Shown here piece by piece: positions 31,897 through 54,461 of a stretch of 64,000 bases of DNA (its first letter is position 1; every line of letters starts with the position of its first letter). The stretch covers positions 1 to 64,000 of the forward strand of contig CANCJV010000002.1 in NCBI GenBank assembly GCA_947378425.1. Direction: 5' to 3'. A program made the position numbers and the translations under genes. Below the pieces are notes generated by a model. That model ran no database searches and was not told the origin of the DNA. It saw only the letters and a list, made by a program, of their open reading frames with translations. Origin of the DNA: Synechococcaceae cyanobacterium (GTDB lineage: Bacteria > Cyanobacteriota > Cyanobacteriia > PCC-6307 > Cyanobiaceae).

Positions 31897-31970
31897 CGGG
31901 ATGTGGCGCAGCTTGGTAGCGCACTTCGTTCGGGACGAAGGGGCCGCAGGTTCGAATCCTGTCATCCCGA
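31897..31970 (+). tRNA. tRNA-Pro (anticodon CGG)
   Basis: A complete 74-base cloverleaf: acceptor CGGGATG (31897-31903) pairs with CATCCCG (31963-31969), D arm GCGC...GCGC, anticodon stem CTTCG/CGAAG with loop TTCGGGA (anticodon CGG), T arm GCAGG-TTCGAAT-CCTGT, discriminator A. CCA is not encoded. Its 3' end is the integration site of the downstream island. Confidence 0.95.
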
Positions 31971-31977
31971 TTCAACT
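31955..31977 (+). repeat. attL direct repeat (tRNA-Pro 3' end)
   Basis: The 23-bp core begins AATCCTGTCATCCCG and ends ATTCAACT. It is identical to 48819-48841; the flanks differ on both sides (TTCG before versus ATCC; ACC after versus CCA). The first 16 bases are the end of tRNA-Pro. Confidence 0.9.
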
Positions 31978-32032
31978 ACCCCCTGCACCGCTAGCGAACA
32001 GCTAGCGGGAATGGTAAAGCCCAGTCGGGATG

Positions 32033-32085
32033 GCTATAGCGGGTCAGTATACTGGTCCTATAGCTCAGGCGCCTAGCTCAGGCGC
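32033..32085 (+). promoter_or_regulatory. Dyad and direct repeats ahead of the integrase gene
   Basis: GCTATAG (32033-32039) and CTATAGC (32058-32064) form an inverted repeat enclosing the perfect palindrome CAGTATACTG (32045-32054). Directly after come two copies of TAGCTCAGGCGC (32061-32072, 32074-32085). This lies between attL and the integrase ATG and could hold the int promoter/operator and recombinase arm sites. Confidence 0.5.
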
Positions 32086-32095
32086 GAATCCCGAC

Positions 32096-33289
32096 ATGGT
32101 CTCGACCCCCTCCACCGAACTCGGCTGGCTCACCCACGAGCTGCGCCAGTCTGTCTCCCCTTGCCAATTCCGCTACGAGTGGTCAAACGCCCGTCAGGGC
32201 CTCAAGCTGCTGCTCAGCGGCGACTGGGGCAGGCGCCGGACCCACACCACCCGCACCATCCCCGGGGCGGAGGGTCTGCCGATCCGTAAGGGGGCCAGGC
32301 CTCTGAGCACCACCGAGCGGCAACTGGCACTGGCAGCAGGGCTGCGGCTGGTGCGCTCCTGGCTGGATGGTGGCGACACCCGCCAGCGCCGTCGTCCTGC
32401 CGGTCAGCCCTGCGATGCCCTGCTGGACCGGCAACGGCGGATTCTTTTCGATCACATCCGCGCTCGCTCCTGTGGGTTCGCTCGAAAGCGCAAGCTCCTG
32501 CGACATGGTCAGGGGCTCTTTGCCTGGCTGGACCTGCGTGGCTTGGCCCTCGACAGCCCCAATGCGATCGCCTGGACGGGGGACGGAGTCCGACGTGACA
32601 CGGCCAACTACGCCGATCGGCTCTTCGTGGCTCAGTGGGCGATCGAGCTGAACGGGCAGGCATGGGTCCTGCCGAAGCGCCGGCGCGCCCAGGCTCCAAA
32701 GGTGAAGCGCGCCTTCACTGAGGCAGCCACCGACGCCGACATCGAGGCGATCTTCTCGCTGATCAGCGACCCCGTGGCCGAGGCGTTCTGCCGGGCGGTG
32801 GCGGCTACCGGTTGTCGGCCCAGCGAGGTGGCTTACCTCGATTGGAAGGGCTGGGACAGGGATGGGCGGCCGATGGGGCTGCAGGGGTTCTCGCCGAAGG
32901 TCAAGAAGGAGTTCGTCGCCGTCGCGCACCCCAGTCGGTGGCTGGCGGATCTCGATCCTGCGCTGTTGCTGGTTCCCGGCATTGACCCATCCGATCGCTC
33001 GCCAAGCGAAGAGGTGGCGGAGCTGAACACCCGCCATTCCTCCCGCCTGCTGAAGCTGGTTCAGAAGGATCTGGCCGCGGCCGGGTTCACCTGTCTGCCT
33101 ACCTGGACGGATCTGCGGCACCTATGGACGATCAGAGCCCAGGCCGACGGTATGGACCGCAAGACAGCCGCCTTGGCTCAGGCACACAGTGAGCGGATGG
33201 CCGCGGCGGTCTACCTGCGACATGGCGAAAAGCGCCAGACCCTTGCAGGCATCGAGCGCTTTGCTAGTCTTCTGCTAGCGGCCTCTTAG
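32096..33289 (+). CDS. int: Tyrosine recombinase (integrase) of the tRNA-Pro island
   Basis: 397 residues from ATG 32096 (MVSTPSTELGWL). The catalytic domain shows ATGCRPSEV (box I, Arg241), TDLRHLW (box II Arg; the usual first His is Thr here) and AHSERMAAAVYLRHG with the likely nucleophile Tyr373, 24 residues from the end. The N-terminal two-thirds has an Arg-rich core-binding region. It would catalyse integration at tRNA-Pro. A decayed homologous copy of its first part is present at 48957. The next gene starts 2 bases after the stop. Confidence 0.88.
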   Translation: MVSTPSTELGWLTHELRQSVSPCQFRYEWSNARQGLKLLLSGDWGRRRTHTTRTIPGAEGLPIRKGARPLSTTERQLALAAGLRLVRSWLDGGDTRQRRRPAGQPCDALLDRQRRILFDHIRARSCGFARKRKLLRHGQGLFAWLDLRGLALDSPNAIAWTGDGVRRDTANYADRLFVAQWAIELNGQAWVLPKRRRAQAPKVKRAFTEAATDADIEAIFSLISDPVAEAFCRAVAATGCRPSEVAYLDWKGWDRDGRPMGLQGFSPKVKKEFVAVAHPSRWLADLDPALLLVPGIDPSDRSPSEEVAELNTRHSSRLLKLVQKDLAAAGFTCLPTWTDLRHLWTIRAQADGMDRKTAALAQAHSERMAAAVYLRHGEKRQTLAGIERFASLLLAAS

Positions 33290-33291
33290 CC

Positions 33292-33831
33292 ATGGTTTCC
33301 AAGAGCATCCTCCTCAAGGTTTCTCCTGAGGTCCATGCCGGGATCCAGGAGGCAGCAGGCCGGCATCAACGCTCGATGCAGGTCGTGTTGGTGGCCTTGA
33401 TCGAGCGCTGGCTCGCGGCAGGCGGGCCGGACCCCCTGCAGTTCGACATTGGCCAACCTGCGGCGACGCCCTCCTCAGGTGAGGCTGTCGATCGAGAAGC
33501 TCGCCGGGCGATCAAGGCCCTTGTCGAGCGAGTGGGTGATCTCCAGGACCAGGTGGTGGCTCTGAAGGCCAGTAAGGACCAGGATGGGCCAGGCTGGGCG
33601 GAAAGAGTGGTGTCGGGTCTCCTCGGAGGAGCGGAGCACCGTGGGGGACAGAGGACATCAGCGGCCCACCTGTCGTTGGCAGAGCAGCAGTTGCTGGACG
33701 GGGTGTTCGGCCAATCCCCCCGGGCGAAGACGCCAGCACCGGAGTCTGGGGAGTCGATGTTCTCCTCCTACCTGGCAGAGCAGCATGGGAGGGGTAACGA
33801 CTCTGCGGTGGCTCTCGACAGAAGCAGTTGA
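33292..33831 (+). CDS. Ribbon-helix-helix-like small protein downstream of integrase
   Basis: 179 residues. The N-terminus MVSKSILLKVSPEVHAGIQEAAGRHQRSMQVVLVALIERWLA has the beta-strand plus two-helix pattern of Arc/MetJ DNA-binding proteins; a short coiled coil (EARRAIKALVERVGDLQDQVVALKA, about 66-90) follows and the tail is polar. The gene starts 2 bases after integrase, so it is probably co-transcribed and may regulate integration or excision. No specific family recognised. Confidence 0.65.
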   Translation: MVSKSILLKVSPEVHAGIQEAAGRHQRSMQVVLVALIERWLAAGGPDPLQFDIGQPAATPSSGEAVDREARRAIKALVERVGDLQDQVVALKASKDQDGPGWAERVVSGLLGGAEHRGGQRTSAAHLSLAEQQLLDGVFGQSPRAKTPAPESGESMFSSYLAEQHGRGNDSAVALDRSS

Positions 33832-35562: not shown

Positions 35563-38535
35563 ATGCCTCCGGGATTGATCCCTCGGAGCCAGGAATCTGA
35601 GGTGGCTTTGCGGGGCCCCTCCGAGGCCCTGGGGCTCCTCCGCAATAGCGCCGTGCCCCCTCTCAGCAGCCTTCAGGTCTCAGCCCTCGCGGCAGCAGTC
35701 GAGACCATTCCGCTATTCCTGGAGTCAGTCGGCCTGATAGACGAGCCCACCGTCTTCACCTGGTACGGCGGAGAGCGCGGTTCGATTCACTTCGAGCGCA
35801 CCGAGGCCGGCGCAACCCCGATCCCCTGGTCTGACGCCGTCCGGGATCGGATCCTGAGGGAGACCGAGCAGATGCACAGCACCGGCCGGCAGCTCGGGTT
35901 CGTCTCCGTCCGAGGGGGAAGCAAGAACGTTCAGCTCACGAGCGGCTCAGCCCTCCGGGCCGAATCCGACACCATGTCGATCGACGATCAGTTCCGCATC
36001 GTCGAGGCCTTCGCGGCCCGCCATGGGGTCGAGCCGACGGTCCTCCGCACCGGGGGGAAGAGCCTCCATATCTGGCTGAGAATCGCCGAACCGATCGCTG
36101 CCGAGAACTACACCATCGCGAGCCGGGCCTTCTTCCGACTCCTGCAGGAGGCCGCCAGCTCGATCGGCCTAGGGGCTGTCGAGTTCGACGATGCCATGAG
36201 TCGCCCGCACCAGCCCGCCCGGCTCCCTGGGGCTGTTCATGCCAAGACAGGAGCGGTTGCCGAGGTGGCCATCTGGGGAGGGGCTGCCGCGGTCTCCCTG
36301 GCTGCTCTGGGGATCGACCTCGAACGGGAACGGGCGACTCAGACTCCGCCCCCATCCGCAAGGGCCCGGGCCCTCGCTGAGGTCTCCTCGGCCGGCTTCC
36401 TGGGGTACGTCGGCAATGCCGAGATCGACCATCTGATCCGCCTTGCCGTGTGCTTCCCGATCCGGCAGCCGGGAGCCGGGACCTACGCCGTCGTCGAGCC
36501 CCTGGTCGGCGCCCTGTCCCGCGCCTATGGGGCCGAGATCGCCGCGACGGTGCTCCATCAAGCCGGGCACGTCGGCAAGCATGGCCAGGCCGGGATCGAG
36601 GGGCTGCGGGCCTGGGCTGAGTCCTACGCCTTCGATCGGGAGGGCGGGATGCGAGGCCTCGCCTACCTGGCCGGCGTCGCCTCCCGTGAGTACGGCTACA
36701 GCCGCCCCCTGGTTCGATTCGAGGAGACCCCGGGAGAGGTCCAGGCCGTCGACCCGGCCATGATGCTGCCCCTGATGCTCGAAGGCGGCGGGACGTTCCG
36801 GGCCGCGACCGGAGCAGGGAAGACAGAAGCCGCAGCACAAGCTGTCCGGGTGATGGCAGAGCAGTGGGCCGACGGGCCCCTGGCCGTGACGGTCGTCACC
36901 CCGCGCCGGGCTCTGAACCTGGCCGCTGCTCATGCCTTCGGGGCCGCCAACGTCTCAGGCTCCAGAGGTCCGACCGCACTGATGCCCCTGTTGCTGTCTG
37001 GCGTCACCCTGCCAGGCCGTCACGCCTGCTGTATCCAGAGCCTAGGGCGGGCCTCGAAATCGAACGGCATCCCGATCAACGGGCGAGGAGGTAGCAACTG
37101 GGTCGACTGGGGGGACGTCAGAGGGGCCCATTCCGGGGTCCTCGCCCTCGATGAGTTCCGCCAGGTGGTCGAGTCCGTGACCCTGGCCCGGGCGGAAGAG
37201 GGTGGGATGTGGACCCCCCAGAGCAGGATCCAATCCTTCCAGGCCCTGCTCCTGACGATGCGTCATGCCGGGGTGATCTGGGCCCTCGATGCACAGGCAG
37301 GGGAGCCCGAGAGGCAGCTCCTCCTAGCCGCTGGCCGGGCCCAGGAGGCGAACAACATCATCACCACCCCAGGCCGTCCCCGGGAGGGCGTCTACCGCTG
37401 GACGGGGTCGATTCCCACGTTCCGCCGGGCCCTGGTCGACGTTGTCACCGGGCCACGTGAGAAGCCCGTCCTGGCGATCGTGGGCGGCAAGGGGGTCGAC
37501 GGGGATGAGGGGCAGGGGATCAATGCTCGGGACCTCCGGGCAGCGGTCCTAGGGGCCTGTCCCGGGGCACGGGTCAAGATCCTCGACGCGGAGTCGGTGG
37601 TAGGGGAGGAGGCCCGGGCGATCCTGCGGGGGATCGGGACAGAGGCCTGGGATCTGGTAATCGGCACGGGGGTGATCCAGTCCGGGGTGTCCTGGGTTGG
37701 CCTGTTCCACCCGACCGTGTTCGTCGCCGGAGGTCCGACCTTGCCCCCACCGATCGCCGGCTCGCAGGCCGTCAACCGGGAGCGGACGGCATCGGATGCC
37801 ATCGCCTACTTGCCGGAGGTGGTCCCCCTGCGAGGACTGGAGGAGGGCACGGCGGAGGAGATCGAGGCCCGGTTCCGGGAGGAACGCCTATCGGGAGCAG
37901 GGGCGGAGGTGGCCGGAGCCGGCCCGGTCGTCGAGGTGTTCGAGAGGATCGCCGCCCTCTATCACGCCCGGGCCTACCGGGAGGCCGTGCTGTACCGGGA
38001 CCACGCGATCGAATACGCCCGCCGCGATGGTTGGGAGGTCCTCCCCCTGGAGGAGGGCGCCAGCAAGGGCACCCGAAAGCAGCAACGCCGCCGCGCAGAG
38101 GCCCTTGGGGTCGAGGCCCTGGGGGACTGGGCCCGCTGGTTGCATGAACGGCTTCAGGGCCTGGAGGGGACCTACTACCGCGAGAGGTGGGAGGCCCACG
38201 TCCGGGGCGCCGTGGGGCTGGATCTGCTGGGGAATCCAGAGGCCGTATGGGCCCATCTGGTCGCCTCAGGCCTGCCTGCCCTATGTGACGGGGAATGGCA
38301 CCCGGCGGAGGAAGTCGCGGCCGTGGGGGCGCTGCTGGGCACCGCTGACGGTCGCCGGCTGCTGGGTCAGGCGGAGCCCTGGCTCGGGACCACACTGAGG
38401 CCCGGGAAGGGGGGCACGGCTCAGCCGGCCAGAGCGGTCGGGAGTGTCCTGAAGGCAGTGGGGTTCAGCCTCAGTAGGAAGTCGATCAAGGCAGCGGGGA
38501 AGGTGGTCAAGGTGTACCGGGCGGAGCCGTCGTGA
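35563..38535 (+). CDS. Primase/helicase-like replication protein (CyRepA1-like)
   Basis: A 990-residue protein. Residues about 40-280 look like an archaeo-eukaryotic-type primase region (FVSVRGGSKNVQL, GGKSLHIWLRI with the S-x-H motif, EFDDAMSRPHQPARLPG). The second part is an ATPase: Walker A in AATGAGKTEAA (Lys420) and an acidic DEF box LALDEFRQV (Asp530, Glu531), followed by motifs near GTGVIQSGVSW, as in origin-binding-protein type helicases. This architecture is that of cyanobacterial plasmid replication proteins of the CyRepA1 family. It probably lets the element replicate after excision. A truncated homologue lies at 49228-49511. Confidence 0.72.
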   Translation: MPPGLIPRSQESEVALRGPSEALGLLRNSAVPPLSSLQVSALAAAVETIPLFLESVGLIDEPTVFTWYGGERGSIHFERTEAGATPIPWSDAVRDRILRETEQMHSTGRQLGFVSVRGGSKNVQLTSGSALRAESDTMSIDDQFRIVEAFAARHGVEPTVLRTGGKSLHIWLRIAEPIAAENYTIASRAFFRLLQEAASSIGLGAVEFDDAMSRPHQPARLPGAVHAKTGAVAEVAIWGGAAAVSLAALGIDLERERATQTPPPSARARALAEVSSAGFLGYVGNAEIDHLIRLAVCFPIRQPGAGTYAVVEPLVGALSRAYGAEIAATVLHQAGHVGKHGQAGIEGLRAWAESYAFDREGGMRGLAYLAGVASREYGYSRPLVRFEETPGEVQAVDPAMMLPLMLEGGGTFRAATGAGKTEAAAQAVRVMAEQWADGPLAVTVVTPRRALNLAAAHAFGAANVSGSRGPTALMPLLLSGVTLPGRHACCIQSLGRASKSNGIPINGRGGSNWVDWGDVRGAHSGVLALDEFRQVVESVTLARAEEGGMWTPQSRIQSFQALLLTMRHAGVIWALDAQAGEPERQLLLAAGRAQEANNIITTPGRPREGVYRWTGSIPTFRRALVDVVTGPREKPVLAIVGGKGVDGDEGQGINARDLRAAVLGACPGARVKILDAESVVGEEARAILRGIGTEAWDLVIGTGVIQSGVSWVGLFHPTVFVAGGPTLPPPIAGSQAVNRERTASDAIAYLPEVVPLRGLEEGTAEEIEARFREERLSGAGAEVAGAGPVVEVFERIAALYHARAYREAVLYRDHAIEYARRDGWEVLPLEEGASKGTRKQQRRRAEALGVEALGDWARWLHERLQGLEGTYYRERWEAHVRGAVGLDLLGNPEAVWAHLVASGLPALCDGEWHPAEEVAAVGALLGTADGRRLLGQAEPWLGTTLRPGKGGTAQPARAVGSVLKAVGFSLSRKSIKAAGKVVKVYRAEPS

Positions 38536-39267: not shown

Positions 39268-39891
39268 TCAGGTTTGATCCCCGACCTGCATTCCGGCAGC
39301 TCCCTTCACCGCGTCAGCGATCCCCCCGAACCTCAAAGGCTCCCCATGTAGGACCTTCAGCGAGGGAAGCGTGATCGAGTGCTGGCTCCGCTTTCTGGCA
39401 TCAAGTACAGCCGTCGGCACGACGTAGAACTCCCACTGGTCTAGATCCAGCGGGTCCAGGGTGGCCTGCTCCTGATGGGCAAGGAGGGCGAAGACGTAGA
39501 CCTCAGCCTGCCGACGGGGTTCATCCTCGTAGGAGCCGGTCTGAGGCTCCCAGGCCCTGGTCTTGGCGCAGGAGAAGACGACGGGCGAGAGCCGCTCCTG
39601 ATGCCAGGTCTGGATGTAGGCCGCCGACTTGACCTCAATGGTGATGCCCTCTGGGGTCCGGAGGTCGTAAGGGGCCCATTCCTCCCGGACGCCCTGGGCC
39701 GCGGCCACCGCCTGGGCGACCAGGTATTCGGCCAAAATGCCTCGCAATGTGTTGCTAACCAGGTCGGACGCGCTCCACTGCCAGAACGAGAGCACGTTGA
39801 AGTTCAGAGCCGCTCCACCCTGACGGAAGGACTCCTCTCCAGAGCGACGCAGGCGCTCGATGGGACCTAGCTCGCTCACGCCGCCGCCCAC
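39268..39891 (-). CDS. PD-(D/E)XK nuclease-like protein at the end of the RM operon
   Basis: 207 residues. [19 protein letters not shown], then [27 protein letters not shown] gives the Asp plus E-V-K pattern of the restriction-endonuclease fold, and CAKTRAW follows. I have seen this family as unnamed genes beside type I RM systems. Its start overlaps the hsdR stop by 16 bases, so it is translated with it. Whether it cuts DNA or helps the RM complex is unknown. Confidence 0.6.
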
Positions 39892-42800
39892 CCCTCGGTG
39901 AGGGTCTCTGCCTGCTCGATCACTGTGTCGGTGGCCTTGGCCTGGAGATCCGGTGGGTAGCCGTATTTCCGCAGGATCCGCTTGACGGCCACGCGCAGCT
40001 CGGCTCGCACGTTCTCCCGCAGGGTCCAGTCGATCGTCACCTTCCCCTTGACGGTGGCCACCAGCTCGCGGGCGATGGTTCGGAGCTGTTCGTCGCCCAG
40101 CACGGCCACAGCGCTGTCGTTGGTGCCCAGGGCGTCGTAGAAGGCCACCTCGTCATCGTTGAGGCCCAGAGCCTCGCCACGGCTGGCCGCGGCCTGCAGG
40201 TCCTTGGCGAGCTGGATCAGCTCCTCGATCACCTGGGCCGTCTCGATCGCCCGGTTGCGGTACCGCTGCAGGGCTTTCTCCAGCAGCTCCCGGAACGAGC
40301 GGGCTTGCACCACGTTGCGCTTGGCGCGGGTCTTGATCTCGCCCTTCAGCAGCTTTTGGAGCAGCTCCACGGCCAGGTTGCGCTGGGGCATCCCCCGCAC
40401 CTCGGCGAGGAACTCGTCCGAGAGGATCGAGATGTCGGGCTTCTTGAGGCCGGCAGCCTCGAACACGTCGAGCACCCCATCGGAGACGACGGCTTTGGAG
40501 ATGATCTGGCGGATGGCCAGGTTTACCTCCTCGTTGGTCTTGCCCTCACCAGGCGTGCCCTTGGCCAGCACGGCGCGCACGGCCTGGAAGAAGCCCACGT
40601 CGTCGCGGATCCGGATGGCTTCCTCGTCGGGCACCGAGAGGGCGAAGGCCTGCGACAGCTCGGTGACGCTCTGCAGCAGCCGCTCCTTGCCCTTCTCCTT
40701 GGCAAGGATGTGCTCCTGGGCGGCTGGGAGAAGCGAGAGACGCTGCTGGGGTGTGCCGCTGACCCAGGGGCTCCAGTCGAGGCCGTGAAAGAGGCCGCAG
40801 CAGACCTCGTACTTCTCCAGCATCACGGCCACCGCCTCGGCCTGATCCAGGGCCGTGTTGCCCTTGCCGCCCGCCTCGGTATAGGTGGCCAGGGCCGCCT
40901 TGAGCTGGTCGCCCAGGCCGAGGTAATCCACGATCAGACCACCTGGCTTGCCCCTGAACACCCGGTTCACCCGGGCGATGGCCTGCATCAGGCCGTGGCC
41001 CCGCATCGGTTTGTCGGCGTACATCGTGTGCAGGCAGGGGGCGTCGAAGCCCGTGAGCCACATGTCCCGCACGATCACGATCCGCAGGGGATCGGCGGGA
41101 TCCCGGAAGCGCTGGGCGAGGGCCTCGCGGCGGGCCTTGTTCCGGATGTGGGTCTGCCAGTCGAGGGGGTCGGAGGCTGAGCCCGTCATCACCACCTTGA
41201 GGCCCCCGGCCTCGTCGGAATCAGAGTGCCAGTCGGGCCGCAGGGCGATCAGGGCCGCATACAGCGCCACGGCGATGCGGCGGCTCATCACCACCACCAT
41301 CGCCTTGCCGTCGAGAGCCTCGCTGCGCTGCTCGTAGTGGGTGACCAGATCGCGGGCGATCAGCTCGATTCGGTGGGGTGCCCCCACCAGGGCCTCCTGC
41401 TGGGCCCACTTGCCCTTGAGCTTCTCCTTGCGCTCGACCTCTTCACCTTCGGTGGCCTCCTCGAAGTTCTGATCGATGTGGGGCTTCTCGGCCTCCACCA
41501 GATCGATCTGAGCAAGGCGGCTCTCGTAGTAGATCGGCACGGTGGCGCCATCCACCACCGCCTGCTGGATGTCGTAGACGCTGATGTACTCCCCGAAGAC
41601 GGCCTTGGTGTTGGCGTCGGCCTTCTCGATCGGCGTCCCCGTGAAGCCGATGAAGGAGGCGTTGGGGAGGGCGTCGCGCATGTGCCGGGCGAAGCCGTCG
41701 ATGAAGTCGTACTGGCTGCGGTGGGCCTCATCGGCGATCACCACGATGTTGCGCCGCTCTGAGACCACCGGGTGCCGGTCGCCCTTCTCCTGGGGCAGGA
41801 ACTTCTGGATCGTGGTGAAGACCACCCCACCAGAGGCCACCTTGAGCTTCTCCCGCAGGTCGGCTCGATCAGCGGCCTGCACCGGTGGCTGGCGCAGCAG
41901 TTCGCGGCAGCGGGCGAAGGTGCCGAAGAGTTGGTCGTCGAGGTCATTCCGGTCGGTGAGCACCACCACGGTGGGGTTGGCCATGGCGGGTTCGAGGATC
42001 ACCCGCCCGGCGTAGAAGGCCATCGAGAGGCTCTTGCCGGAGCCCTGGGTATGCCAGACCACCCCGATGCGTCGATCACCTTCAGCGGCCCGCAGGGTCT
42101 GCGCCAGGGCCTCGTTGACGGCGTGGAACTGGTGGTAGCCCGCCAGCTTCTTGATCAGACGGCTGTCGCCCTCTTCGAAGACGATGAAGTAGCGGAGTAG
42201 GTCGAGGAAGCGCCGCTGCTCGAACACCCCCTCCAGCAGCACCTGGAGTTCGCTGAGGTAGCCGGGGGCGTCGCCTTCCCCCTCCACGGTGCGCCAGGGC
42301 TTGAACCACTCGCGGCCGGCACCGATCGCGCCGATGCGGGCCTGGATGCCGTCGGAAGTGATCAGCAGGGCGTTGGTGGTGAACAGGGCCGGGATCTGGG
42401 CCTGGTAGGTCTGAAGCTGTTGGAAGGCGCTCCAGATCGTGGCGTTCTCATCGGCCGGGTTCTTCAGCTCGATCACGGCCAGGGGCAGGCCGTTGAGGAA
42501 CACCACCAGATCGGGCCGGCGCTGGTGCTGGCCCTCCACCACCGTGAACTGGTTCACCGCCAGCCAGTCGTTGGCCCTGGGAGCGTCGAAGTCGATCAGC
42601 CTGGCCTGGGCGCCACCGATCGAGCCGTCAGGGCGGCGGAACTCCACGGGGATGCCATCCACCAGGAAGCGGTGGGCGGCCCGGTTGCGCTCGATCAGCG
42701 AGGGCGCATCGAGGCGGATCAGCTTGCGGTAGGCGTCCTCGATCGCCTCAGCTGGCAGGTTCGGATTCAGGCGGGCCAGGGCGGAGCGGAGGCGGCCTTC

Positions 42801-42947
42801 CAGCAGCACATCGCGGCAGTTGGGGTCGCTGCGCTCGGCGGCGGGCTGCCCAACTGCCAGCACAGGGCCGTAGCGGCACTCGTAGCCCAGCTCGGCGAGC
42901 CAACCCAGGGCGGCCTCTTCCACGACCGACTCGCTGAACGGGGTCAT
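39876..42947 (-). CDS. hsdR: Type I restriction enzyme, R (motor and nuclease) subunit
   Basis: 1023 residues, full length. The N-terminal nuclease domain has [22 protein letters not shown] (Asp, then E-x-K). The SF2 motor follows with [14 protein letters not shown] (Walker A), [11 protein letters not shown] (DEAH box) and [13 protein letters not shown] / [34 protein letters not shown] (later motifs). The C-terminus is helical and would contact the HsdM-HsdS core. It translocates DNA and cuts unmodified DNA. Its start overlaps the RhuM-Fic stop by 4 bases. Confidence 0.93.
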
Positions 42948-43954
42948 GGCGGCGCTCCTGCGAGCATGTTCATCACCAATCGGATCATCACCTCCTTGTC
43001 CTTCGCTGCCGACTCGGCCACCAGCAGCGCGAGTGCCGCGAGGCCCATATCGTTGATCACGACTTCGCCATTGCGGAATAAGCGGCCGTTGCGATTCAGG
43101 AAGTCCACGAACAGGAACGAGCCGATGCGTTTATTGCCGTCGGTAAACGGATGATTCTTGACAACAAAATAGAGGAGGTGTGCCGCTTTCGACTCGACCG
43201 TTGGGTAGGCCGGCTCACCGAAAACGCTCTGGTCGAGATTGCCGAGCAGGGCGGCCAATCCATCCTTTGGCTCAAGTCCGAACAGGTCGGTGGCCTCGCC
43301 CCTTGCGATCAGATCGGCTTTCAGCCGAGCGACAGCGGACCTCGCCTCGCTCGGGGCTAGCAGCTCACCGCCAGGGGAACCCTCGGGCTCGGTAAGCAGA
43401 CCCTCGTCATAGCTCTGGAGCAGGAGGAAGGTCTGCGTGTAACGGGCGATGACGTCGACGAGCCCGCGCCCCTGGTCCGTCGTCAGTGCCTCGCCGGCAG
43501 CGACCCTGCGTATCAGGACAAGGGCGGCCTCCAGTTCTGCGGCATTGCGCGCAAAGCGCTGTTGGCTGAGCGTGTAGCCACGCACCAGGTGCTCGCGGAG
43601 CGTGCGGGTGGCCCAAATGCGGAACTGGGTGCCCCGCTTTGAATTCACCCGGTAGCCGACCGAAAGAATGGCGTCCAGGTTGAAGAATTCGATGTCGCGG
43701 ACGACTTCCCGGTCACCCTCCGTTTGAACCGTTGCATTTTTTGCAACGGTTCCCTCTCGCTCCAACTCCCCGGATGTGAAGACGTTGCGCAGGTGCCTGG
43801 AAATGACGGACTTGTCGCGGCCGAACAGCTCAGCGATCTGGCTCAAGGAAAGCCAGACCGTCTCCTGATCGAGGCGAACGTCCACCTGAGCACTGCCGTC
43901 GGGAGCCTCATAAACGAGGATCTCGCTGCCAGTGGGCTCGGGGAAGCTCGTCAT
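42944..43954 (-). CDS. RhuM-Fic/Doc fusion protein
   Basis: 336 residues. The N-terminal RhuM-type domain ([25 protein letters not shown], then [27 protein letters not shown]) is a DNA-binding-like module; the C-terminal Fic fold has [15 protein letters not shown] (His268). The NKR in place of NGR is the Doc-like form; Doc phosphorylates EF-Tu, whereas most Fic proteins transfer AMP. Such fusions are often found inside type I RM operons. It overlaps hsdR (ATGA). Confidence 0.82.
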
Positions 43955-44017
43955 GGTGAGCCCGTCCGGTCTTGGGCCGCCCTGCGCAGCAGGAGGCGAG
44001 CCTGGTCAGCCGGCGAC

Positions 44018-44326
44018 CTAGAGCACACGGCCGTGGGTGCGATCTGCGAACTCCACGGTTCCCTGCACCTGGGCGCGGTCGTCGTCGCTCTCCTGGCTGG
44101 TCACGATCAGGTCGATCGGCCTCAGCCAGCCCCGCAGCGCATGGCGGAGGTGAATCTTCTCTTGGTAGCGATCGCCCGTCGCTGCCGATCCGTAGCCGCA
44201 ATCTTCCGCGCAGCGGTGGGCGATCAGCCGCTCGGGGGAGGCCGCGGCCATCAGCCGGGACACGGCCTCGTCGATCGGCTCGGGTGTCACCGCCCAGGGC
44301 TTGAAGGTGGCGGGATCAACGGCCAT
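44018..44326 (-). pseudogene. Degenerate nucleotidyltransferase-like gene
   Basis: 102 residues. The ends match small MNT-type nucleotidyltransferases: EAVSRLMAAASPERLI at the start and HALRGWLRPIDLIVTSQE near the end. The core that should contain GSRARG and the D-x-D metal ligands is missing; the middle reads AHRCAEDCGYGSAATGDRY, and neither other frame restores it. So it is either a remnant or a catalytically dead small protein. It sits between the GIY-YIG and RhuM-Fic genes. Confidence 0.5.
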
Positions 44327-44404
44327 CGGCCTGGCCTCAGGGCCTGTCCAGTGATCAAAGGCTAGGCGGCGTCTCAGAAGTTGGCAGAACCAGAGGGGTG
44401 CTGG

Positions 44405-45289
44405 TCATGGCTCAACCTCTGCCGAGGCTGCCGCTGCCACTCTCTCCTGGTGTTCCTTGAGGGTGACGCCCTGGGCGTCCTTCCATTCGAGCCGGCCGTT
44501 GGCACTACGGGCGAGCAGGAGGGCTGCCGCCAGAGACGGGGACTGGAACTCGAAGTCCTGGAGGAGCAGCACCTCATCGCCTTGCCGGGCGAAGACGCCT
44601 TGCTTGGTGAGCTGCTCCCGGGTTCGGATCAAGCCCTCCGGTGAGCCGGCTGTGAAGTCGCGGCGCCCCCTGGCCCCCTTCTGAACGGTGAAGCCGTTGG
44701 GTGACTCGTATCCGTTGCCTGCGGCGTCGAGCCCCTTCAGCGAGAACACGTTGCTGGGGTTGAGAGTCGGGAGGTTGGCAGGTTGCTCGAAGATCCTCAG
44801 CCCGAGCACCGGATAGCAGAGCAGCATCTCTTCCAGGAAGCCCTCCGCCTCGGCTTGGTCCATCTCCGCCAGGTTCACGGCGTGCCCCTGCACAACGTTG
44901 TCCAGCCGGCAGCGCTTGGCCTCCTGGGCCAGGCGGATGAGCCGGGCCTCCAAGTGCTGGGCGTGGGCCTTGTTGAGGTAGCCATCCTTGGAGGTGAAGG
45001 CGTAGGCCGTGGTCCAGAACTCCTTGGCCTGGTGCTGCTCCAGGCGGCGGCCCAGGGGATCGGCTTCGCCGATGTAGACGAGATCGATTCCTCCTTCCTC
45101 AGGGTCAGGCCCGGTGAGCACGTAGACCCCTGGGCGTGCGGACTCATCCCGCTGGGTGAACTCCTTGAGCTGGGAACGGGGAATCACGAAGCCAATGCCA
45201 GTCCAGCTCGTCTTCTCGACGATGCGCATCCCCTCAGGAAGCCCGGAGGGCACGAACAGGCGTAGGGAGAAGGGGCGAGAGGGAGTCAT
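44405..45289 (-). CDS. GIY-YIG nuclease-family protein with DUF4357
   Basis: 294 residues. GVYVLTGP...LVYIGEAD around residues 53-75 is the GIY-YIG strand pair, followed by an Arg-rich helix (LGRRLEQHQAKEFW) and EARLIRLA. The C-terminal SPSLAAALLLARSANGRLEWKDAQGVTLKEH is the DUF4357 domain. Proteins of this layout are common beside type I RM systems. It overlaps hsdS by 4 bases. Confidence 0.82.
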   Translation of the reverse strand: MTPSRPFSLRLFVPSGLPEGMRIVEKTSWTGIGFVIPRSQLKEFTQRDESARPGVYVLTGPDPEEGGIDLVYIGEADPLGRRLEQHQAKEFWTTAYAFTSKDGYLNKAHAQHLEARLIRLAQEAKRCRLDNVVQGHAVNLAEMDQAEAEGFLEEMLLCYPVLGLRIFEQPANLPTLNPSNVFSLKGLDAAGNGYESPNGFTVQKGARGRRDFTAGSPEGLIRTREQLTKQGVFARQGDEVLLLQDFEFQSPSLAAALLLARSANGRLEWKDAQGVTLKEHQERVAAAASAEVEP

Positions 45290-46609
45290 GCGGCCGCCTG
45301 CTCCAGGAATCGTTCGGCGTCAGGCACCCGCAGCTCACCGGAGATGAGCTTGGGGAGGAGGGTGTCGCGGAGGGTGGCAAGGTTGCGGGATTCGCGTCGA
45401 CAGACAAGCGTCCTGGCAAGCAAATCTTCTGAGATGCGACCGAACTCAGCAGCAACAGGAGTAGGGGGTAAGACGACTGCGAGGTTCAGGATTGCATCTA
45501 CTGGTGCACGTTGATGGCTCTTCGAGGTCCCAGTGACGAGGCTTTCGATCTGTTGGCGAAACAGCATTGATCGAGCGAAGCTGTAGACAAAGCTCCGATC
45601 GAATGGAGGACGTGCACGCAACACCAGGAACTCTGTCGAGCACACAGCTCTCTCTATTGGCCGTATATCAACGAGCCACACCCGTTCGATCTCAGGATTG
45701 AGCTTCGAGAGAAGGATTGCCCCTGGCGGAACGCGAGACTTAAGACTCTTGATGTTCTCCCCGTTCTCGGCCTTTGGATATTGCCCGTCGTCGAAGGCTG
45801 GAAGGCTGTAGTGATGGAACAGTGCTTCGGGTGATGAGAGTGGGTTCTCCTGGTCGCGGAGTAGTTCGACAACCTCCTTGAATCGTCCAACCTTCCACCC
45901 CCTCGGAATCTCCCCCAGCTCCGAGTCCTCGAAGGAATCCGGGAACAGATCGGCGAAGTGCAGGGGCAACCCGGGGTCCCGTCCTTCGGCCTTGGCGCAG
46001 ACGGGGTCGAAGTCCACGAACCACGACTGGAACAGTGCTCGGGCCATCGCCTCCAGCGTCTCGTTCATCCGCCGGTTCAGCTCGATCCTGTCGTCCAGCG
46101 TGCCGAGGATGTTGGCGATGGCGCGTTGTTCAGAGAGGGGCGGTCGGGAGAACTTGAACCGCCTTATCCGTTCCGGCGATGTGTGCTTGACGGTCGTTCC
46201 GGTGGCGCCGGCGAGGACTTCATGCCGATAAGGGGCACTGCACAAGAGGTAATGGAGGTATCGAGTATCGATCGACTGGCTATCCGTTACTACGACCCTG
46301 CCGAGACGCTGGTTGTGCAGGTATCTCCTGCCATCAGAACGAGCAGGGACAAAGGCAGGCAGGCCGAGTGTATCTGACTGCTTACTGAGATCAGTCATGG
46401 TCACGAGCAGATCGCCCTCGGCAAGAATGAAGCCATCGGGGACTAGCCCGTCGAAGTACTTGAACTTGTCCCCCTTGAACCCGCCGCCGATCGCGAAGTT
46501 GCCTGGCGTTAGCAAGATGTCGCCGCGTGGCTCGTCATAGATGAACTCGCCTTGGAACGCGAACCCGTGCTTCACGTCGATCAAGTCACCGAGTGAAGCG
46601 TCGAGCCAC

Positions 46610-46626
<17 letters not shown>
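45286..46626 (-). CDS. hsdS: Type I restriction-modification specificity subunit
   Basis: 446 residues with two target-recognition domains: the first starts [21 protein letters not shown] and ends in the conserved spacer helix [46 protein letters not shown]; the second starts [15 protein letters not shown] and ends [39 protein letters not shown]. It reads the bipartite DNA target. The gene is more AT-rich in the second domain, suggesting domain exchange. It overlaps hsdM by 17 bases. Confidence 0.92.
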
Positions 46627-48390
<1,764 letters not shown>

Positions 48391-48818
48391 CAACTGGATC
48401 AGACCGGCGCCAATAGGGGCAGTATGACCACCACTACAAGAATCTGGGGCGTCAGGGCTCCTGGATGATGCAGCGCGTGTTGGTAGCGGAGAGGCCCACC
48501 ACGGCGAGCAGCTTGCGGTGGGGCAGCCCCTGGTCCGCCTGTCCCTCTGCGTGGTCGGCCTGAGCCGGCTTGCAGGAGTGCTTCCGCCCGAACTTGACCC
48601 CAGCCGCCAGGGCTCGCTGCCGGCCATCCTCGGTCGCTGAGGCAGGGCTGATCGGCCTGACTCTGCCGCCAGGATGCCCACCACTAAGGATGGGGTAGGA
48701 GACCTCACAGGGTTGACTGATCGCTCGCTTGGCTTATGCTGCAACAAGAGCCCTTCTGCGATCTCAGGTATCACCCTCAGGTGCTACCTCTGGATCCGGC
48801 TCTATGACAAGGCGATCC
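48391..48818. other. Right-end region of the island
   Basis: About 430 bases between hsdM and attR. Apart from the resolvase remnant I see nothing coding; a short plus-strand frame at 48674 has no recognisable sequence. Confidence 0.4.
48452..48695 (-). pseudogene. Serine recombinase (resolvase/invertase) remnant
   Basis: Minus-strand pieces in two frames: [10 protein letters not shown] (near 48690-48660) and then, one frame over, [20 protein letters not shown], matching the end of the catalytic domain and the AAGVKFGRK hinge of serine resolvases. The C-terminus ends at the stop at 48452. No catalytic N-terminal part remains. It lies between hsdM and attR. Confidence 0.5.
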
Positions 48819-48841
48819 AATCCTGTCATCCCGATTCAACT
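48819..48841 (+). repeat. attR direct repeat
   Basis: Identical over 23 bp to the tRNA-Pro end at 31955-31977. The sequence beyond it (48842-49230) is homologous to the sequence just inside attL of the island, so this site is also the left end of a second element. Confidence 0.85.
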
Positions 48842-48956
48842 CCACCTGTGTCGCCAGCGATCTGCTAGCGGACCCGGCAACTGCTCACTCGGGACGGCCT
48901 AGCAGGTCGTTGTCTCGCCATGGCTCAGGTGCCTGTCTCAGGCGCGGATCGCGACA

Positions 48957-49230
48957 TGGTCTCGACCTATGCGCCGATCTGGGCTGGCTCACGCAGGAGT
49001 GGCGTCAGTCGATCTCCCCTTTCGCTTTGAGCGGACCCACATCACCCGTGCACCATCCCCGGAGCTGATGGCCAGCCCATCCGCAAGGGGGCAAGGCCTC
49101 TCAGCACCTCCGAGCGGCAACTGGCCCCGGCTGCCGGTCAGCGGTTGGTGCGCACGTGGCCGAACGCTGGCGATAACGGTCAGCCCTGCAGTGTGCTGTC
49201 CTGGGCCGGCAAAGCCGGGTTCTGCTCGAC
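48957..49230 (+). pseudogene. Integrase remnant
   Basis: From ATG 48957 the DNA follows the island integrase start (ATGGTCTCGACC..., then ADLGWLTQEWRQSISP in place of TELGWLTHELRQSVSP) and matches on to GGTCAGCCCTGC, corresponding to about residue 105, with several frameshifts. No catalytic domain remains. Confidence 0.7.
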
Positions 49231-49511
49231 TCCCCGGGGCCGTTCACTGCCGGACGGGAGCCGTTGCCCACGTCGCCCAGTGGGGAGGAGTCGAGGCTGA
49301 CACCCTGGAGTCCCTGGGCAAGGACATCGAAGCCGAGCGAGCCCGCACCACCCGGCTCCGCGGACGGACCGCGTCCATCGCCATCGCATCGACGCGCGGA
49401 TTCCTCGGCTACGTCGGTGACCCTGAGATCGACTCCCTGGTCGGGGCCCTCAGCAGGGCCTATGGGGCCGAGTTGGCCGCCGTGATCTTGTCCGCGGTGG
49501 CATATCGGTAA
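49228..49511 (+). pseudogene. Replication-protein (primase-region) remnant
   Basis: The open frame reads SARLPGAVHCRTGAVAHVAQWGGVEAD and RGFLGYVGDPEIDSLVGALSRAYGAELAAVIL, clearly homologous to PARLPGAVHAKTGAVAEVAIWGG and AGFLGYVGNAEID...LVGALSRAYGAEIAATVL of the island replication protein. An internal stretch of about 24 codons present in the intact gene is missing, and the match stops near 49500. Confidence 0.75.
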
Positions 49512-49745
49512 GCGAGGGGAGGCCGGTTTGGAGGGGCCCCCGGCCGCCTTCGCCGACCCCCCCTGCCGATGCATTCGGTCGCCATGTCGGTTCTGGCCTC
49601 TGCAGGGCGCCGCAGCGCGATGCTCTCGGATGCGCTGGATACCCAGGTGGACCAGATCGGGCAGAACCTGACCCTGGAGCCAATCGCTGCTGATGGCCGC
49701 CTGGTCGACCGAAGGGCCACATCTTTCCTGGCCCCCTGTACCGCA
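49512..49745. other. Junction region after the relic element
   Basis: No gene recognised. It joins the relic element to the chromosomal minus-strand genes and should contain the true right end, which I could not identify. Confidence 0.35.
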
Positions 49746-49910
49746 TCAGCCGAACACAGCAAGAAGAGGCCTGCACCTGGCGCTGGCCCAGGGGATTCCG
49801 ATCAACAGGTCGATGACCACGCCGCTGAGGCCGATGTTGCGGCCGAGCCGGCCGCCCTGCTGGCGGCTCTGGATCGCCTCGGGTACAGGGGGGTGGGGCA
49901 GCGCGCTCAT
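49746..49910 (-). CDS. Short protein coupled to the glycosyltransferase, probably truncated
   Basis: 54 codons from an ATG that overlaps the glycosyltransferase stop (ATGA). It reads MSALPHPPVPEAIQSRQQGG, then RLGRNIGLSGVVIDLLIGIPWA and ends LLAVFG. The hydrophobic end stops abruptly near the relic element, as if a longer membrane protein had been cut. Family not recognised. Confidence 0.4.
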   Translation of the reverse strand: MSALPHPPVPEAIQSRQQGGRLGRNIGLSGVVIDLLIGIPWASARCRPLLAVFG

Positions 49911-50707
49911 GGTGTCGGTTCAGGATCCGGGGTCTCGCTCCACTGCGCCAACCAGAGGCGCCGCCAGCTGCCGCGGTAATCCCCGCGGATCCGGCGCTGG
50001 CTGAAGTACCACAGCCGGTTGAGGGCGAAGCTGGCGCGGTTCTGTTCCTCGAGCCAAGGGTCGCTGCCAATCGTGGCGCTGTGGGTTGCATTGAGGGCGG
50101 CCATGGCGCTGTGGGCCTCGCCGCCCGGGAGCCACTCCACGTCTGGTGTGGCGCGGAGCCGGTCGCGATAGTCGAGGTCTTCGCCGTAGGCCGGGTGGAA
50201 GCCCGGGTCGAACAGGCCGATGCGGTCCCAGCAGAGGGCTGTGAGCAGGAAGGCCGAGAAGCCGTTGGGTTCCGGCAGCAAGGTCAGGAACTGGGGGTGG
50301 GCCGTATCGATGCGGCGGAGGGCAGCTGCGATCACCCCTGGTGCGAAGCGCACATCGTTGTTCGCCAGCAGTGCCACGGTGGCTTCGGGAAAGCTGGAGA
50401 GGATGAGGTTCCAGCTGGCGGCCACACCGAGGTTGCGAAAGGGCCGGGCGATGCGGATGGTGTCGATCAGGGGATGCCCCAGCTGTCGCAGGGCTTCCAG
50501 CTGGCTGGCCACCGTTGCGCCAGGGCCGATGTCGGCGGCGCTGCTGTTATCCACGCTGGCCAGGGTGCCCACCGGGTGATCGAGACTGTCCAGCAGATCC
50601 AACAACAGGTCAGCCCGATTGAGAATCGGGATGCCAAGTAGGGGCAGGGCGCTGCTGGCCGGGGGTGGCCGGCTGCACCTGTTCGAGGAGTTGCCACAGG
50701 CGTTCAA
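49907..50707 (-). CDS. Glycosyltransferase family 2-like protein
   Basis: The frame begins at a TTG (50707), but the recognisable part starts LPLLGIPILNRADLLLDLLDSLD, the first strand of a GT-A fold, with VDNSS, NLGVAASWNLIL, LLANNDVRFAPG (the DxD-like site) and FHPAYGEDLDYRDRLRA (the acceptor/catalytic acid region). It lacks a sensible own start; the upstream frame 50610-50912 probably supplies its N-terminus through a frameshift. Likely transfers a sugar in surface polysaccharide synthesis. Confidence 0.68.
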   Translation of the reverse strand: MNACGNSSNRCSRPPPASSALPLLGIPILNRADLLLDLLDSLDHPVGTLASVDNSSAADIGPGATVASQLEALRQLGHPLIDTIRIARPFRNLGVAASWNLILSSFPEATVALLANNDVRFAPGVIAAALRRIDTAHPQFLTLLPEPNGFSAFLLTALCWDRIGLFDPGFHPAYGEDLDYRDRLRATPDVEWLPGGEAHSAMAALNATHSATIGSDPWLEEQNRASFALNRLWYFSQRRIRGDYRGSWRRLWLAQWSETPDPEPTP

Positions 50708-50912
50708 TCAGGTAGTGATCGCTGGTGCGTTCCACTACATCCGCCAGGCAACTCCAGAGCTTTGGTTGGCGCAGTTCTGCCCGCTCGGGGTGGGCCGACA
50801 GGGAGGAGGCCCAGTCATGCAGCCAGTTAAAGACATAACCTCGGGCCGCCTGCAGGTCTGCCGATGCGAGGGCCTGTTGAACCTGAGCCTGGCGATGCTC
50901 TGATTCGTCCAC
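50610..50912 (-). CDS. Helical N-terminal domain, probably part of the glycosyltransferase
   Basis: 100 residues from ATG 50912 (MDESEHRQAQVQQALASADLQAARGYVFNWLHDW), all helical, ending LIERLWQLLEQVQPATP before running into non-conserved sequence. It overlaps the start of the glycosyltransferase frame by about 98 bases in a different register. The run CCCCC at about 50661-50665 (minus strand CCACCCCCGGCC) is a plausible site for an indel joining the two. Confidence 0.5.
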   Translation of the reverse strand: MDESEHRQAQVQQALASADLQAARGYVFNWLHDWASSLSAHPERAELRQPKLWSCLADVVERTSDHYLIERLWQLLEQVQPATPGQQRPAPTWHPDSQSG

Positions 50913-51172
50913 TGCCTGATAACGCTGCGGTATGCCGACTTTGGCATGGGGTGCCGATGATCCGATCCGGAGATGTAGCGGTGCTCTGCTGATCGATCAG
51001 GCGTTGAGAGGGATTCTGGATGGGAATCCGGTCTTTGGTATTGAAGCAAGCACCAATGGTCGCAAGACCTTGATGGACGCTGCATCCTTTCCCCACCAGC
51101 AGGACTCCGGCGGTTGGGGTACAGCGATCGTGATGGCGCGTCAGTCAGCGAGTGCGGAAATGCCTGAAGGGA

Positions 51173-51775
51173 TCAGAAGGTCAGCCTTGTGGTGCCGTTG
51201 ACCCACCTGTTGGTGGCGCTGCTGTAGGTGAACTGGGTGCTGCCGATGACGAGAAGATCGCCATTGCTCGCACCAGTGATCTTGACACCGGAGAGGTCGG
51301 CAACACTGGCTCCAGATTTATTGAAGGTGATTCTGTCGATGGCGGCGTCAGAGCCGCCGAGGTTGATGGCGACGCTGGTCTTGGCTGTGCCACCAAAACA
51401 CGAGAACGTCGGCGCCTGTGCTAGCGTTGAACGTGGAATTGGTGACATTGCCAGCGACTCTGATGGTGTCGTTGCCGGCAGCTGTGTCGATCTTGGTATT
51501 AGTGGCGGTGCCACCAGTAGTGACGGTGTCGTTAGCGGCACCCGTCTGAATATTGACGCCGCAGCTCAGGACGTTGCCCTGAATCGCAATGTTGTCGACA
51601 CCATTTCCGGATAGAATGGAGAGGTTGCTTACGCCGCCTTTCGCTTGAAGGGTGTTAGTGCCGTCTCCAAGACTGAAGGCGGAGTTGCTGGCAATGGCTG
51701 TATTGTTGTTGGTTGTTGTACTCGTCTTGCTCGCTACTGCAAGAATATCGTCTTTGCCGGAGAAGCTGAGGATAC
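51173..51775 (-). pseudogene. Calcium-binding-repeat-like surface protein fragment, frameshifted
   Basis: Two overlapping frames form one protein: SFSGKDDILAVASKTS, NLSILSGNGVDNIAIQGN, NIQTGAANDTVTTGG, KIDTAAGNDTIRVAGN, NSTFNASTGADVLVF, then, one frame over near 51390, GGTAKTSVAINLGGSDAAIDRITF and ending WVNGTTRLTF. The repeating GxGxDxI/V pattern is like RTX or related surface proteins, without the strict GGxGxDxUx nonapeptide. It lacks an N-terminus and a start. Confidence 0.6.
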
Positions 51776-51895
51776 AGCACCTCATTGGCGGCCAGCTGTT
51801 CCCAGTAGTGAATGGCCTGCTGGTGATGGGTGTGGTCGGGGCAGGCCAACGCCAGCCAGACATTCAGATCCGGCAGGTCGGCGGGTGATGGTCAT
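51775..51895 (-). pseudogene. VapC-like PIN toxin, N-terminal fragment
   Basis: The frame reads ADLPDLNVWLALACPDHTHHQ and on to WEQLAANEVL, the start of a PIN ribonuclease with its first acidic residue. It is out of frame with the ATG at 51895 that overlaps the antitoxin stop, and it ends where the calcium-binding-repeat sequence begins, so most of the toxin is gone. Confidence 0.55.
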
Positions 51896-52144
51896 GCGTT
51901 GAGCAGCTCGAACACGCTGGCGTTACTGAGCTGGTGGCCCTCGATGGCGAGCAACCCGTCCAACTGCGGCGGCACGGCCGCGGAGCGTTTGAGCTCGGTC
52001 CGGGCGGGTACGTCGCTGAGCCCTTGCTCCACGTCGCTGCGCAGCAGCTGCTTGAGGGTGTCCCTTTCGCTGGCCGCCCTGGTCTTCAGCCGTGCGAACA
52101 GCGGATCAGGCAGCTCCAGGGTGGTGCGCTTGCTCCACGGCCAT
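51892..52144 (-). pseudogene. VapB-like ribbon-helix-helix antitoxin, probably frameshifted at its start
   Basis: The frame KRTTLELPDPLFARLKTRAASERDTLKQLLRSDVEQGL has the Arc/CopG fold, with a C-terminal tail ending FELLNA at the stop 51892. An ATG at 52142-52144 would give MAVEKRTTLEL if one base near 52132 were removed; as it stands the start is out of frame, although the open frame continues left to 52221. Confidence 0.55.
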
Positions 52145-52571
52145 CGATGTGCGGATTGTTGTGCGCATCTTTTGGGGACGGGGCCCTTCGTTGATGGGGC
52201 TTGCACCTCGGGTGCTGGCAAGCTTCACCACCACCAGATCGGCGCAGAGGGGCGCTAAGTCACACGGCTACTCGGGGCTGAGCTGTTCGATGTCAACTAC
52301 GTCAAGGCGGCCGCGTATCTAATCGTTGCCGAACAGTATCCCCTCTCTGAGCAATCCAGCAGCGGGGAGCCGCAGGGCTTTTGTGCCGGGGTGCGGGACT
52401 CCGCCGTGGTGATCGGCTTCACCTGGGCCATTTGCTCCAGCAACCCCGCCGACGAAATCTCACTGGTGGTGCCGGCGATCAGCCTCGTTGAGGTGTTCCA
52501 GTGGGTCCTGCGCGAACACCGGAAGGCTCAGGGCGACGGTCAGGGCTCACGAGGCCCGTCATGCCCGCAGC
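52145..52571 (+). other. Remnant region upstream of the VapB-like gene
   Basis: A plus-strand frame from about 52256 reads GAELFDVNYVKAAAYLIVAEQYP and, after 52391, AVVIGFTWAI...ISLVVPAISLVEVFQWVLREH. The start and end pieces recall a PIN-domain protein, but there is no start codon and the function cannot be assigned. The rest is featureless. Confidence 0.3.
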
Positions 52572-54461
52572 TCAGGCCAGGGCCGCTCCCGGGTAGCCCC
52601 GTGGTGTCACCATCCGGCCGTCCTGCACGCGGCTGCTGCTGTTGCCGATCAGCACCAGGGTGAGCATGTCCACCTGGTCGATCGGCAGTTCCCCGAGGGT
52701 GTGCAGGCTCACCTGCTCTTCGCGGCGGCCGAGCTGGCGGGCCAGCACCACCGGCGTGCTCGCGGGTCTGCCCAGCAGCAGCAGCTCCCGGGCCCGCCCC
52801 AGCTGCCAGTCCCGGCCCAGCGAGCGCGGGTTGTAGAGGGCGACGACGAAATCGCCGTCAGCGGCGGAGCGCAGGCGCCGTTCAATCACCTCCCAGGGGG
52901 TGAGCCGATCGCTGAGGCTGATGGTGCAGAAGTCGTGCATCAGCGGCGCGCCGGCGCGGGCAGCGGCCAGCTGCAGGGCCGACAGGCCGGGATGGACCTC
53001 AAAGCAGGGGCGCTCCTGGGATGGCAGCTGCAGCCAGAGCTCGAGGGCCAGCCCGGCCATGCCGTAGATCCCGCTGTCCCCCGAGGAGATCAGGGCCACC
53101 TTCAGCCCCTGGCTCGCCAGATCGAGGGCTTCAGCGCAGCGGGCCCGCTCTTCGGTGAGTTTGCCGTCGCGGCGCAGTTGATCCGGCCGGCGCAGGGGTT
53201 CCAGCAGATCGAGATAGGGGCCGTAGCCCACCCAGATCGAAGCGGCGGCCAGGGTGCGGCGGCAATCGCCGCTGAGCAGATCGAGCCGACCCGGCCCGCT
53301 GCCCACCAGATGCAGTTCGCCCCGCTGCGGCGCCCATTGCCTCGCGGCCAGAACCACCGCCAGGGTGGCGGCCCCCCGTTCCCCGGCACCGGCCGGTTCG
53401 ATCGTCTTGGCCACCAGCTGTTCGGGCTGGGGGCCATCGCTGGTCGCTGTTGCTGGCGCGACCGCCGCCAGAGAGGCCGCCGCCTCGGAGACGCTGGCCG
53501 TGCCCATTTCCCTGGCCACGGCTTCTGAGGGGTTCGGCACCGCCACCGCTGCCAGTTGGGCGGCTGTGAACAGCTTCAGCGGCCAGCCCCGCGCCTCGGC
53601 CAGGGCCAGCAGTGCCGGCTCATCGCCCTTCCGATCGATGCTGGCCAGGCCTGCCACCGCGTCTTCGGCCAGGCCCGCTTGGCTGAGAACCCTTTGAACC
53701 AGCCGCTCCAGCACGGCCAGGCTGGTGTTGCGTTCGCAGCCGATCCCGAGCCACAGGCAGGGCGGATGCCAGCGGCAGCCTGCCCCCAGCCAGGGACCGA
53801 TCACCAGCGAAGTGGCGGGAGCGGCATCGGCTGGGCTGACAGCGAGAGGGTCGACCATCCCGGCGGCGGCCTCCAGGCCTTGCCAGAGGGTCAGGCCGCC
53901 CTGCTGGAGCAGTGGTGCCTGGCGACCGGCGGCGGCGGCGAGCATCAGCCCCCGCCAGTCGCCGCCGCCCCGCCGCCAGCCCCACGCAACACCGAAGGCA
54001 TCGAGGGGAAGCCGGCCCTGGGCGCCACTGCTGCCGCCGATCACGGCCTGCCCCCCGAGCAGGGCGGCGATCTCTCGGCTGAGCTGCTCGGCGCCGGCTA
54101 GGTGACCCCCCAGCAGGGGCACGGCGAACTGTCCCTGCGGATCCACCACCACGACGGCTGGATCCTGTTCTTTGCCGCCCAGCAGCGGCGCGATCAGCCG
54201 GGTGACCAGACCGCAGGCTCCCACCGCCACCACCGCTGAGGCACTGCTCCATTGCTGAGTCAGCCAGGCAGCGCTGCCTGGGTCGCCAGCGCTGTCAACA
54301 CTGCTCCCATCGGCTTGTGCCTCACTATCCGCCTGGGCGTTGCTGCCGGCGCTCGGCCAGCGCACGGCGGCCAGAAGCCCGGCCTGCTCCAGTTGCTGCA
54401 GCACCGACAGGGCCGCCGGGCTGAAGCCGAGGGCCACGATCCGGGGTTTGGGGGAATTCAT
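52572..54461 (-). CDS. cobJ: CbiG-CobJ fusion, precorrin-3B C17-methyltransferase
   Basis: 629 residues. The first 320 are CbiG-like (RIVALGFSPAAL, GLVTRLIAPLLG, VPLLGGHLAGAEQLSREIAALLGGQAVIGG, then WLGIGCERNTSLAVLERLV). From about 385 the CobJ domain begins GELHLVGSGPGRLDLLSGDCRRTL, with ALISSGDSGIYGMAGLALEL and VALYNPRSLGRDWQLGRARELL. It methylates C17 during corrin ring contraction; the fusion with CbiG is usual in cyanobacteria. Coupled (ATGA) to the gene upstream. Confidence 0.92.
   Translation of the reverse strand: MNSPKPRIVALGFSPAALSVLQQLEQAGLLAAVRWPSAGSNAQADSEAQADGSSVDSAGDPGSAAWLTQQWSSASAVVAVGACGLVTRLIAPLLGGKEQDPAVVVVDPQGQFAVPLLGGHLAGAEQLSREIAALLGGQAVIGGSSGAQGRLPLDAFGVAWGWRRGGGDWRGLMLAAAAGRQAPLLQQGGLTLWQGLEAAAGMVDPLAVSPADAAPATSLVIGPWLGAGCRWHPPCLWLGIGCERNTSLAVLERLVQRVLSQAGLAEDAVAGLASIDRKGDEPALLALAEARGWPLKLFTAAQLAAVAVPNPSEAVAREMGTASVSEAAASLAAVAPATATSDGPQPEQLVAKTIEPAGAGERGAATLAVVLAARQWAPQRGELHLVGSGPGRLDLLSGDCRRTLAAASIWVGYGPYLDLLEPLRRPDQLRRDGKLTEERARCAEALDLASQGLKVALISSGDSGIYGMAGLALELWLQLPSQERPCFEVHPGLSALQLAAARAGAPLMHDFCTISLSDRLTPWEVIERRLRSAADGDFVVALYNPRSLGRDWQLGRARELLLLGRPASTPVVLARQLGRREEQVSLHTLGELPIDQVDMLTLVLIGNSSSRVQDGRMVTPRGYPGAALA

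Follow-up and report, generated by a model that had tools for sequence, protein, structure and literature searches.

Remnant of a probable tandem array of integrative elements at a tRNA-Pro gene of a picocyanobacterium

The window, which is the whole 64,000-nucleotide stretch of DNA that was analysed, belongs to a picocyanobacterium of the same genus as Cyanobium sp. N.Huapi 1H5 (G175). It contains a mobile element, hereafter the resident element, at the 3' end of a tRNA-Pro (CGG) gene, followed by a degraded stretch and a cobJ-like gene (Table 1). The left chromosomal neighbour is presumably lipA, a name that we assigned from the sequence. An intact tyrosine-recombinase integrase gene lies beside the tRNA, as expected of a tRNA island of this type. 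The integrase gave a PHROG integrase match (E 9.5e-7) and is 84-85% identical to its homologues at the same tRNA in G175 and in Synechococcus sp. 1G10 (G124), while no relatives of it were found in viral contigs.

Table 1. Features of the tRNA-Pro locus, with positions in the window.
Feature	Position	Strand	Remark
lipA (lipoyl synthase, presumed), conserved left chromosomal neighbour	30804..31838	-	adjoins tRNA-Pro in relatives examined
tRNA-Pro (CGG), integration target	31896..31971	+	ARAGORN
attL core AATCCTGTCATCCCGA, 3' end of tRNA-Pro	31955..31970	+	exact repeat with 48819
Resident integrase gene, tyrosine recombinase	32030..33289	+	homologous start 32099
Candidate left-arm pair CTCAGG-N7-CTCAGG, resident element	32064..32082	+	same place in two relatives
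Small gene directly 3' of resident integrase, kept in family	33292..33831	+	two relatives at 57-64%, another at 50%
Resident replication-type protein (990 aa) with a CyRepA1-like helicase region	35563..38535	+	NCBIfam profile match (weak)
Resident cargo: type I restriction-modification genes with Fic/RhuM and DUF4357 genes	39876..47983	-	
Candidate right-arm pair, resident element	48763..48781	+	72 bp from core end, as in G175 and G124
Resident right end and shared att core	48804..48834	+	31-bp sequence in 3/300 family genomes
Relic left leader, arm pair at 48924-48942	48842..48956	+	
Frameshifted relic of the integrase 5' part (codons 1 to ~116)	48957..49219	+	indels -1, -7, -57, +2, -19
Relic of replication gene, without 23 codons	49220..49545	+	corresponds to resident 36217-36612
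Remainder of inserted zone between relic and chromosome	49546..52552	.	missing from 45 empty sites
Glycosyltransferase-like gene split over two frames	49907..50912	-	homologues in genus relatives
Repeat-protein gene remnant; intact form neighbours glycosyltransferase in relatives	51200..51767	-	matched in two broken pieces (E 1e-7, 1e-6)
cobJ-like gene, native right neighbour; chromosome resumes	52553..54461	-	alignment to empty site L075 starts at 52553

The replication-type protein of the resident element matched the NCBIfam model CyRepA1 (NF042913) with E 9.2e-9 and 34.7 bits, far short of the family cut-off of 200, and this weak match suggests that it is distantly CyRepA1-like. CyRepA1 is a family of cyanobacterial plasmid replication proteins (PMC10899382), whereas the gene described here, which weakly matches the helicase part, lies on an integrated element. 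Full-length homologues with 31-41% identity occur in six other genomes of the host's family, and a search of solved structures gave no meaningful match. Five of these six genomes have no tRNA-Pro(CGG) in the stretch examined. Within the restriction-modification cargo, where the name HsdR rests on sequence only, a single gene of 336 aa (42944-43954) fuses a RhuM-like part to a Fic domain. No conjugation genes were recognised in the resident element. With its integrase frame intact and both ends present, it can probably still excise, a mobility that we infer from these features.

The two ends of the resident element are linked by an exact 23-bp repeat (31955-31977 and 48819-48841). Comparison of the left end with those of relatives divided this repeat into a 16-bp att core (48819-48834 at attR), which occurs in the window at 31955 and 48819 only, and seven further identical bases, TTCAACT, that form the left end of the element. 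Since TTCAACT stands to the right of each core, the DNA that follows attR is an element left end and not chromosome. The motif CTCAGG-N7-CTCAGG has three matches in the 64-kb window (32064, 48763 and 48924) against 0.06 expected, a chance figure that serves as a guide only, as the motif was picked after inspecting these ends. The pairs are located 109 bp inward of the left core, 72 bp ahead of the right core's end and, in the relic, 105 bp in from the left end; in both intact relatives described below, they are found at 110 and 72 bp. For such candidate sites, recurrence at matching places in relatives is a stronger argument than the chance figure, and their placement would fit arm-type integrase sites flanking it. 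The junction at 48763-48942 reads resident right arm, core, and relic left arm and leader. Because a candidate arm pair lies to either side of the core and is kept in the relic, the shared junction has the arm-core-arm order expected of a tandem, with one att core common to two elements. Between 48842 and 52600, the best matches to a third att core or right-end copy were no better than those of shuffled sequences, and no right arm pair of a second element was found. As its outer att was not found, the locus is at most the remnant of a tandem array.

The first-pass annotation had claimed that the DNA to the right of attR repeats the left leader and integrase start of the island. BLASTN of 48700-50000 against the island bore this out, giving four colinear blocks on the same strand: 48816-49021 with 31952-32162 (76%, E 2e-34), 49032-49184 with 32237-32387 (80%, E 5e-35), 49224-49331 with 36217-36324 (72%, E 2e-8) and 49429-49545 with 36494-36612 (70%, E 2e-8). 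The blocks, with E values from 5e-35 to 2e-8, are not low-complexity sequence, and the objection that the similarity might be confined to short low-complexity segments fails. No further match that might be another source of this region was present in the host draft genome. Overall, the leader and the first ~116 integrase codons of the relic are 77% identical to the resident, and the replication piece is ~70% identical. The similarity reaches about 49545; position 49511, at which the relic had been taken to end, is only a stop codon within it. The jump from integrase to replication gene, put at about 3.8 kb, agrees with the resident as reference (~3.77 kb) but amounts to ~1.9 kb on the compact G124 element, so the apparent size of the deletion in the relic depends on the element used as reference. 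The reported loss of about 24 codons from the replication piece is real, although the number is 23: the block HLIRLAVCFPIRQPGAGTYAVVE is missing from the relic, while the resident and six other homologues contain it.

Within about 250 bp, the integrase part of the relic differs from the resident by indels of -1, -7, -57, +2 and -19, four of which shift the frame, the other being a 57-bp deletion; as read from this sequence, the relic integrase is dead. An ORF of 180 aa (48969-49511) was rejected as a genuine fusion gene, the integrase part being out of frame and the replication part alone in frame. The 34 coding substitutions unique to the relic are spread evenly over the codon positions (10/12/12; P = 0.89), whereas the unique changes of three intact copies (6, 9 and 17), when pooled, depart from evenness (9/5/18; P = 0.016). 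Compared directly, the patterns of the relic and the intact copies did not differ significantly (P = 0.14), and the even spread in the relic is only suggestive of pseudogene change. It is the indels, the joining of the integrase to the replication gene and the loss of 23 codons that make the case for decay.

One intact element of the family occupies the same tRNA-Pro in each of two relatives, G124 (10.3 kb) and G175 (20.6 kb), with cobJ directly after attR in both. The right ends of these elements and of the resident share an identical stretch of 31 bp, which, with up to 3 mismatches allowed, was found in 3 of 300 genomes of the host's family, namely the host, G124 and G175. The resident shares 85% identity with an element of another species and 82% with one of another genus. 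Synechococcus contig AG-670-F04 carries a 69% relative beside its tRNA-Pro. In a further genome (G280), a more distant integrase of the family, with 40-49% identity in separate pieces, lies beside the same tRNA-Pro (L069, 1276-2589), and the contig stops before cobJ. The lipA-tRNA-Pro-cobJ site was empty, the tRNA-cobJ distance being 15-310 bp, in 45 of the 49 genomes examined (37 relatives within the genus and 8 members of the genus of G124), and occupied in the remaining four (the window's genome, G175, G280 and G124). In seven relatives whose tRNA-cobJ gap is longer, a search for scars left by an element returned short chance matches only. The proposed survey for arrays at tRNA-Pro yielded the array of the host and no second one among the genomes surveyed.

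From 52553 onwards, the sequence again resembles the closest empty site (L075; cobJ 91%). Because the alignment starts only there, 48842-52552 is foreign to the site, and the non-native zone to the right of attR extends over 3.7 kb rather than the 0.67 kb that had been implied. Its portion at 49546-49906 matched the resident element no better than shuffled sequence did (score 32; shuffle maximum 35). Genus relatives have homologues (~350 aa, mostly 51-57% identical) of the glycosyltransferase-like gene that follows, at other positions; in relatives, it and the repeat-protein gene stand intact side by side at a different site on the chromosome. In the host genome, the pair (49907-51767) was found here only, and broken; it may be either cargo of the second element or a separate arrival. 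A VapC-like start that visual inspection had suggested near 51770-51890 had no Pfam support and was discarded.

We consider it highly probable (about 90%) that a single tRNA-Pro gene received, at its 3' end, two elements of the same integrase family, which came to lie head to tail, and that the second then decayed. Repeated insertion at this tRNA, as the first-pass annotation had proposed, is supported by the arm-core-arm junction, the 45 empty sites and the two intact single copies. The layout would be tRNA, core, resident element, core, second element and chromosome. An internal deletion would have joined the integrase start of the second element to the middle of its replication gene, and small indels and even substitution would have killed its remaining genes. 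Loss of its right end and of the third att would have deprived it of independent excision, and excision of the resident would leave the left end of the relic beside the tRNA. That the second element was once complete, and where it ended, we infer, since no third att or right-end copy was found. The same annotation held that the older copy decayed in place. Decay is upheld by the pseudogene-type change, but greater age follows from the decay alone: insertion of the resident into the attL of the relic, or of the relic into the attR of the resident, gives the same map, so the layout gives no order. From its decay, the relic is the likelier first comer, and its deletion and decay probably occurred in place.

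The second element may alternatively have come already deleted, or the tandem may have entered as one composite unit. This would be compatible with the layout, and composite tandem transfer is discussed in the IME literature (PMC5704250), but the relic junction was present in no other genome searched, and we regard such an arrival as unlikely. A partial duplication of the resident, by unequal exchange or aberrant excision followed by divergence, would account for the matching gene order and direct orientation, and the relic is slightly nearer to the resident (77.3% identity) than to the two relatives (74.6% and 72.0%), with 13 sites supporting kinship to the resident and 7 and 7 to the relatives. 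However, at 77% the relic is further from the resident than the relatives are (85% and 82%), a gap that fast decay could widen, and the site-specific core stands exactly at the junction, with the copy beginning exactly at the element left end. Duplication appears very improbable. It is hardly credible that the relic and its tail are a CIME still moved by the resident integrase: the relic still has the core and arm pair at its left end and the further tail content is foreign to the site, but no right att or right arm rises above shuffle level in 48842-52600, and the weak CCCGTCATgCCCG at 52555 is equally explained as native DNA, by comparison with the closest empty site. A CIME has lost its integration genes and kept attL and attR; the relic has kept its left att and lacks the right one, and is not a CIME because the outer att is gone.

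Insertion of two family members followed by decay of one has precedents. Decay of one element in a tandem at a shared site is established for ICE/IME accretion and CIMEs (reviewed in PMC5704250; Pavlovic 2004, cited there). The present locus resembles these systems in having a decayed element joined to a tandem partner through a shared att; it differs in that the resident has no recognised conjugation gene and the decayed partner no outer att. At the ssrA gene of Dehalococcoides, tandem islands lie behind one RNA gene with short direct repeats between them, and some have no integration genes (PMC3146451). The likeness is in tandem islands at one RNA gene, whereas Dehalococcoides has a serine recombinase and a tmRNA target, and here the recombinase is of the tyrosine type, the target is tRNA-Pro and only one array was found. 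The tycheposons of Prochlorococcus, as described second-hand in PMC10872708, are likewise picocyanobacterial cargo islands at tRNA genes (a set of seven) with a tyrosine recombinase, a likeness by description only. A limited literature search found no published name for the family of the resident element, which is apparently unnamed. Tandem accretion with decay is a known process, and the present case is clear but ordinary. It indicates that, within a single lineage, one element family has inserted at least two times at one picocyanobacterial tRNA-Pro site. The ends of the family are now defined by the core, the candidate arm motifs and the right-end sequence, so intact, single and decayed copies should be easily found in other genomes.

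We also considered whether the arm-core-arm junction is a complete attP-like chromosomal site that the resident integrase or incoming relatives still use, which seems quite improbable. If true, the relic would be a landing or capture site, and the displaced glycosyltransferase/repeat-protein pair would be DNA so captured. The G175 element (L068 and L124) carries cargo resembling metal-transport and copper-handling genes, and encodes a different helicase-like protein where the resident has its replication gene.
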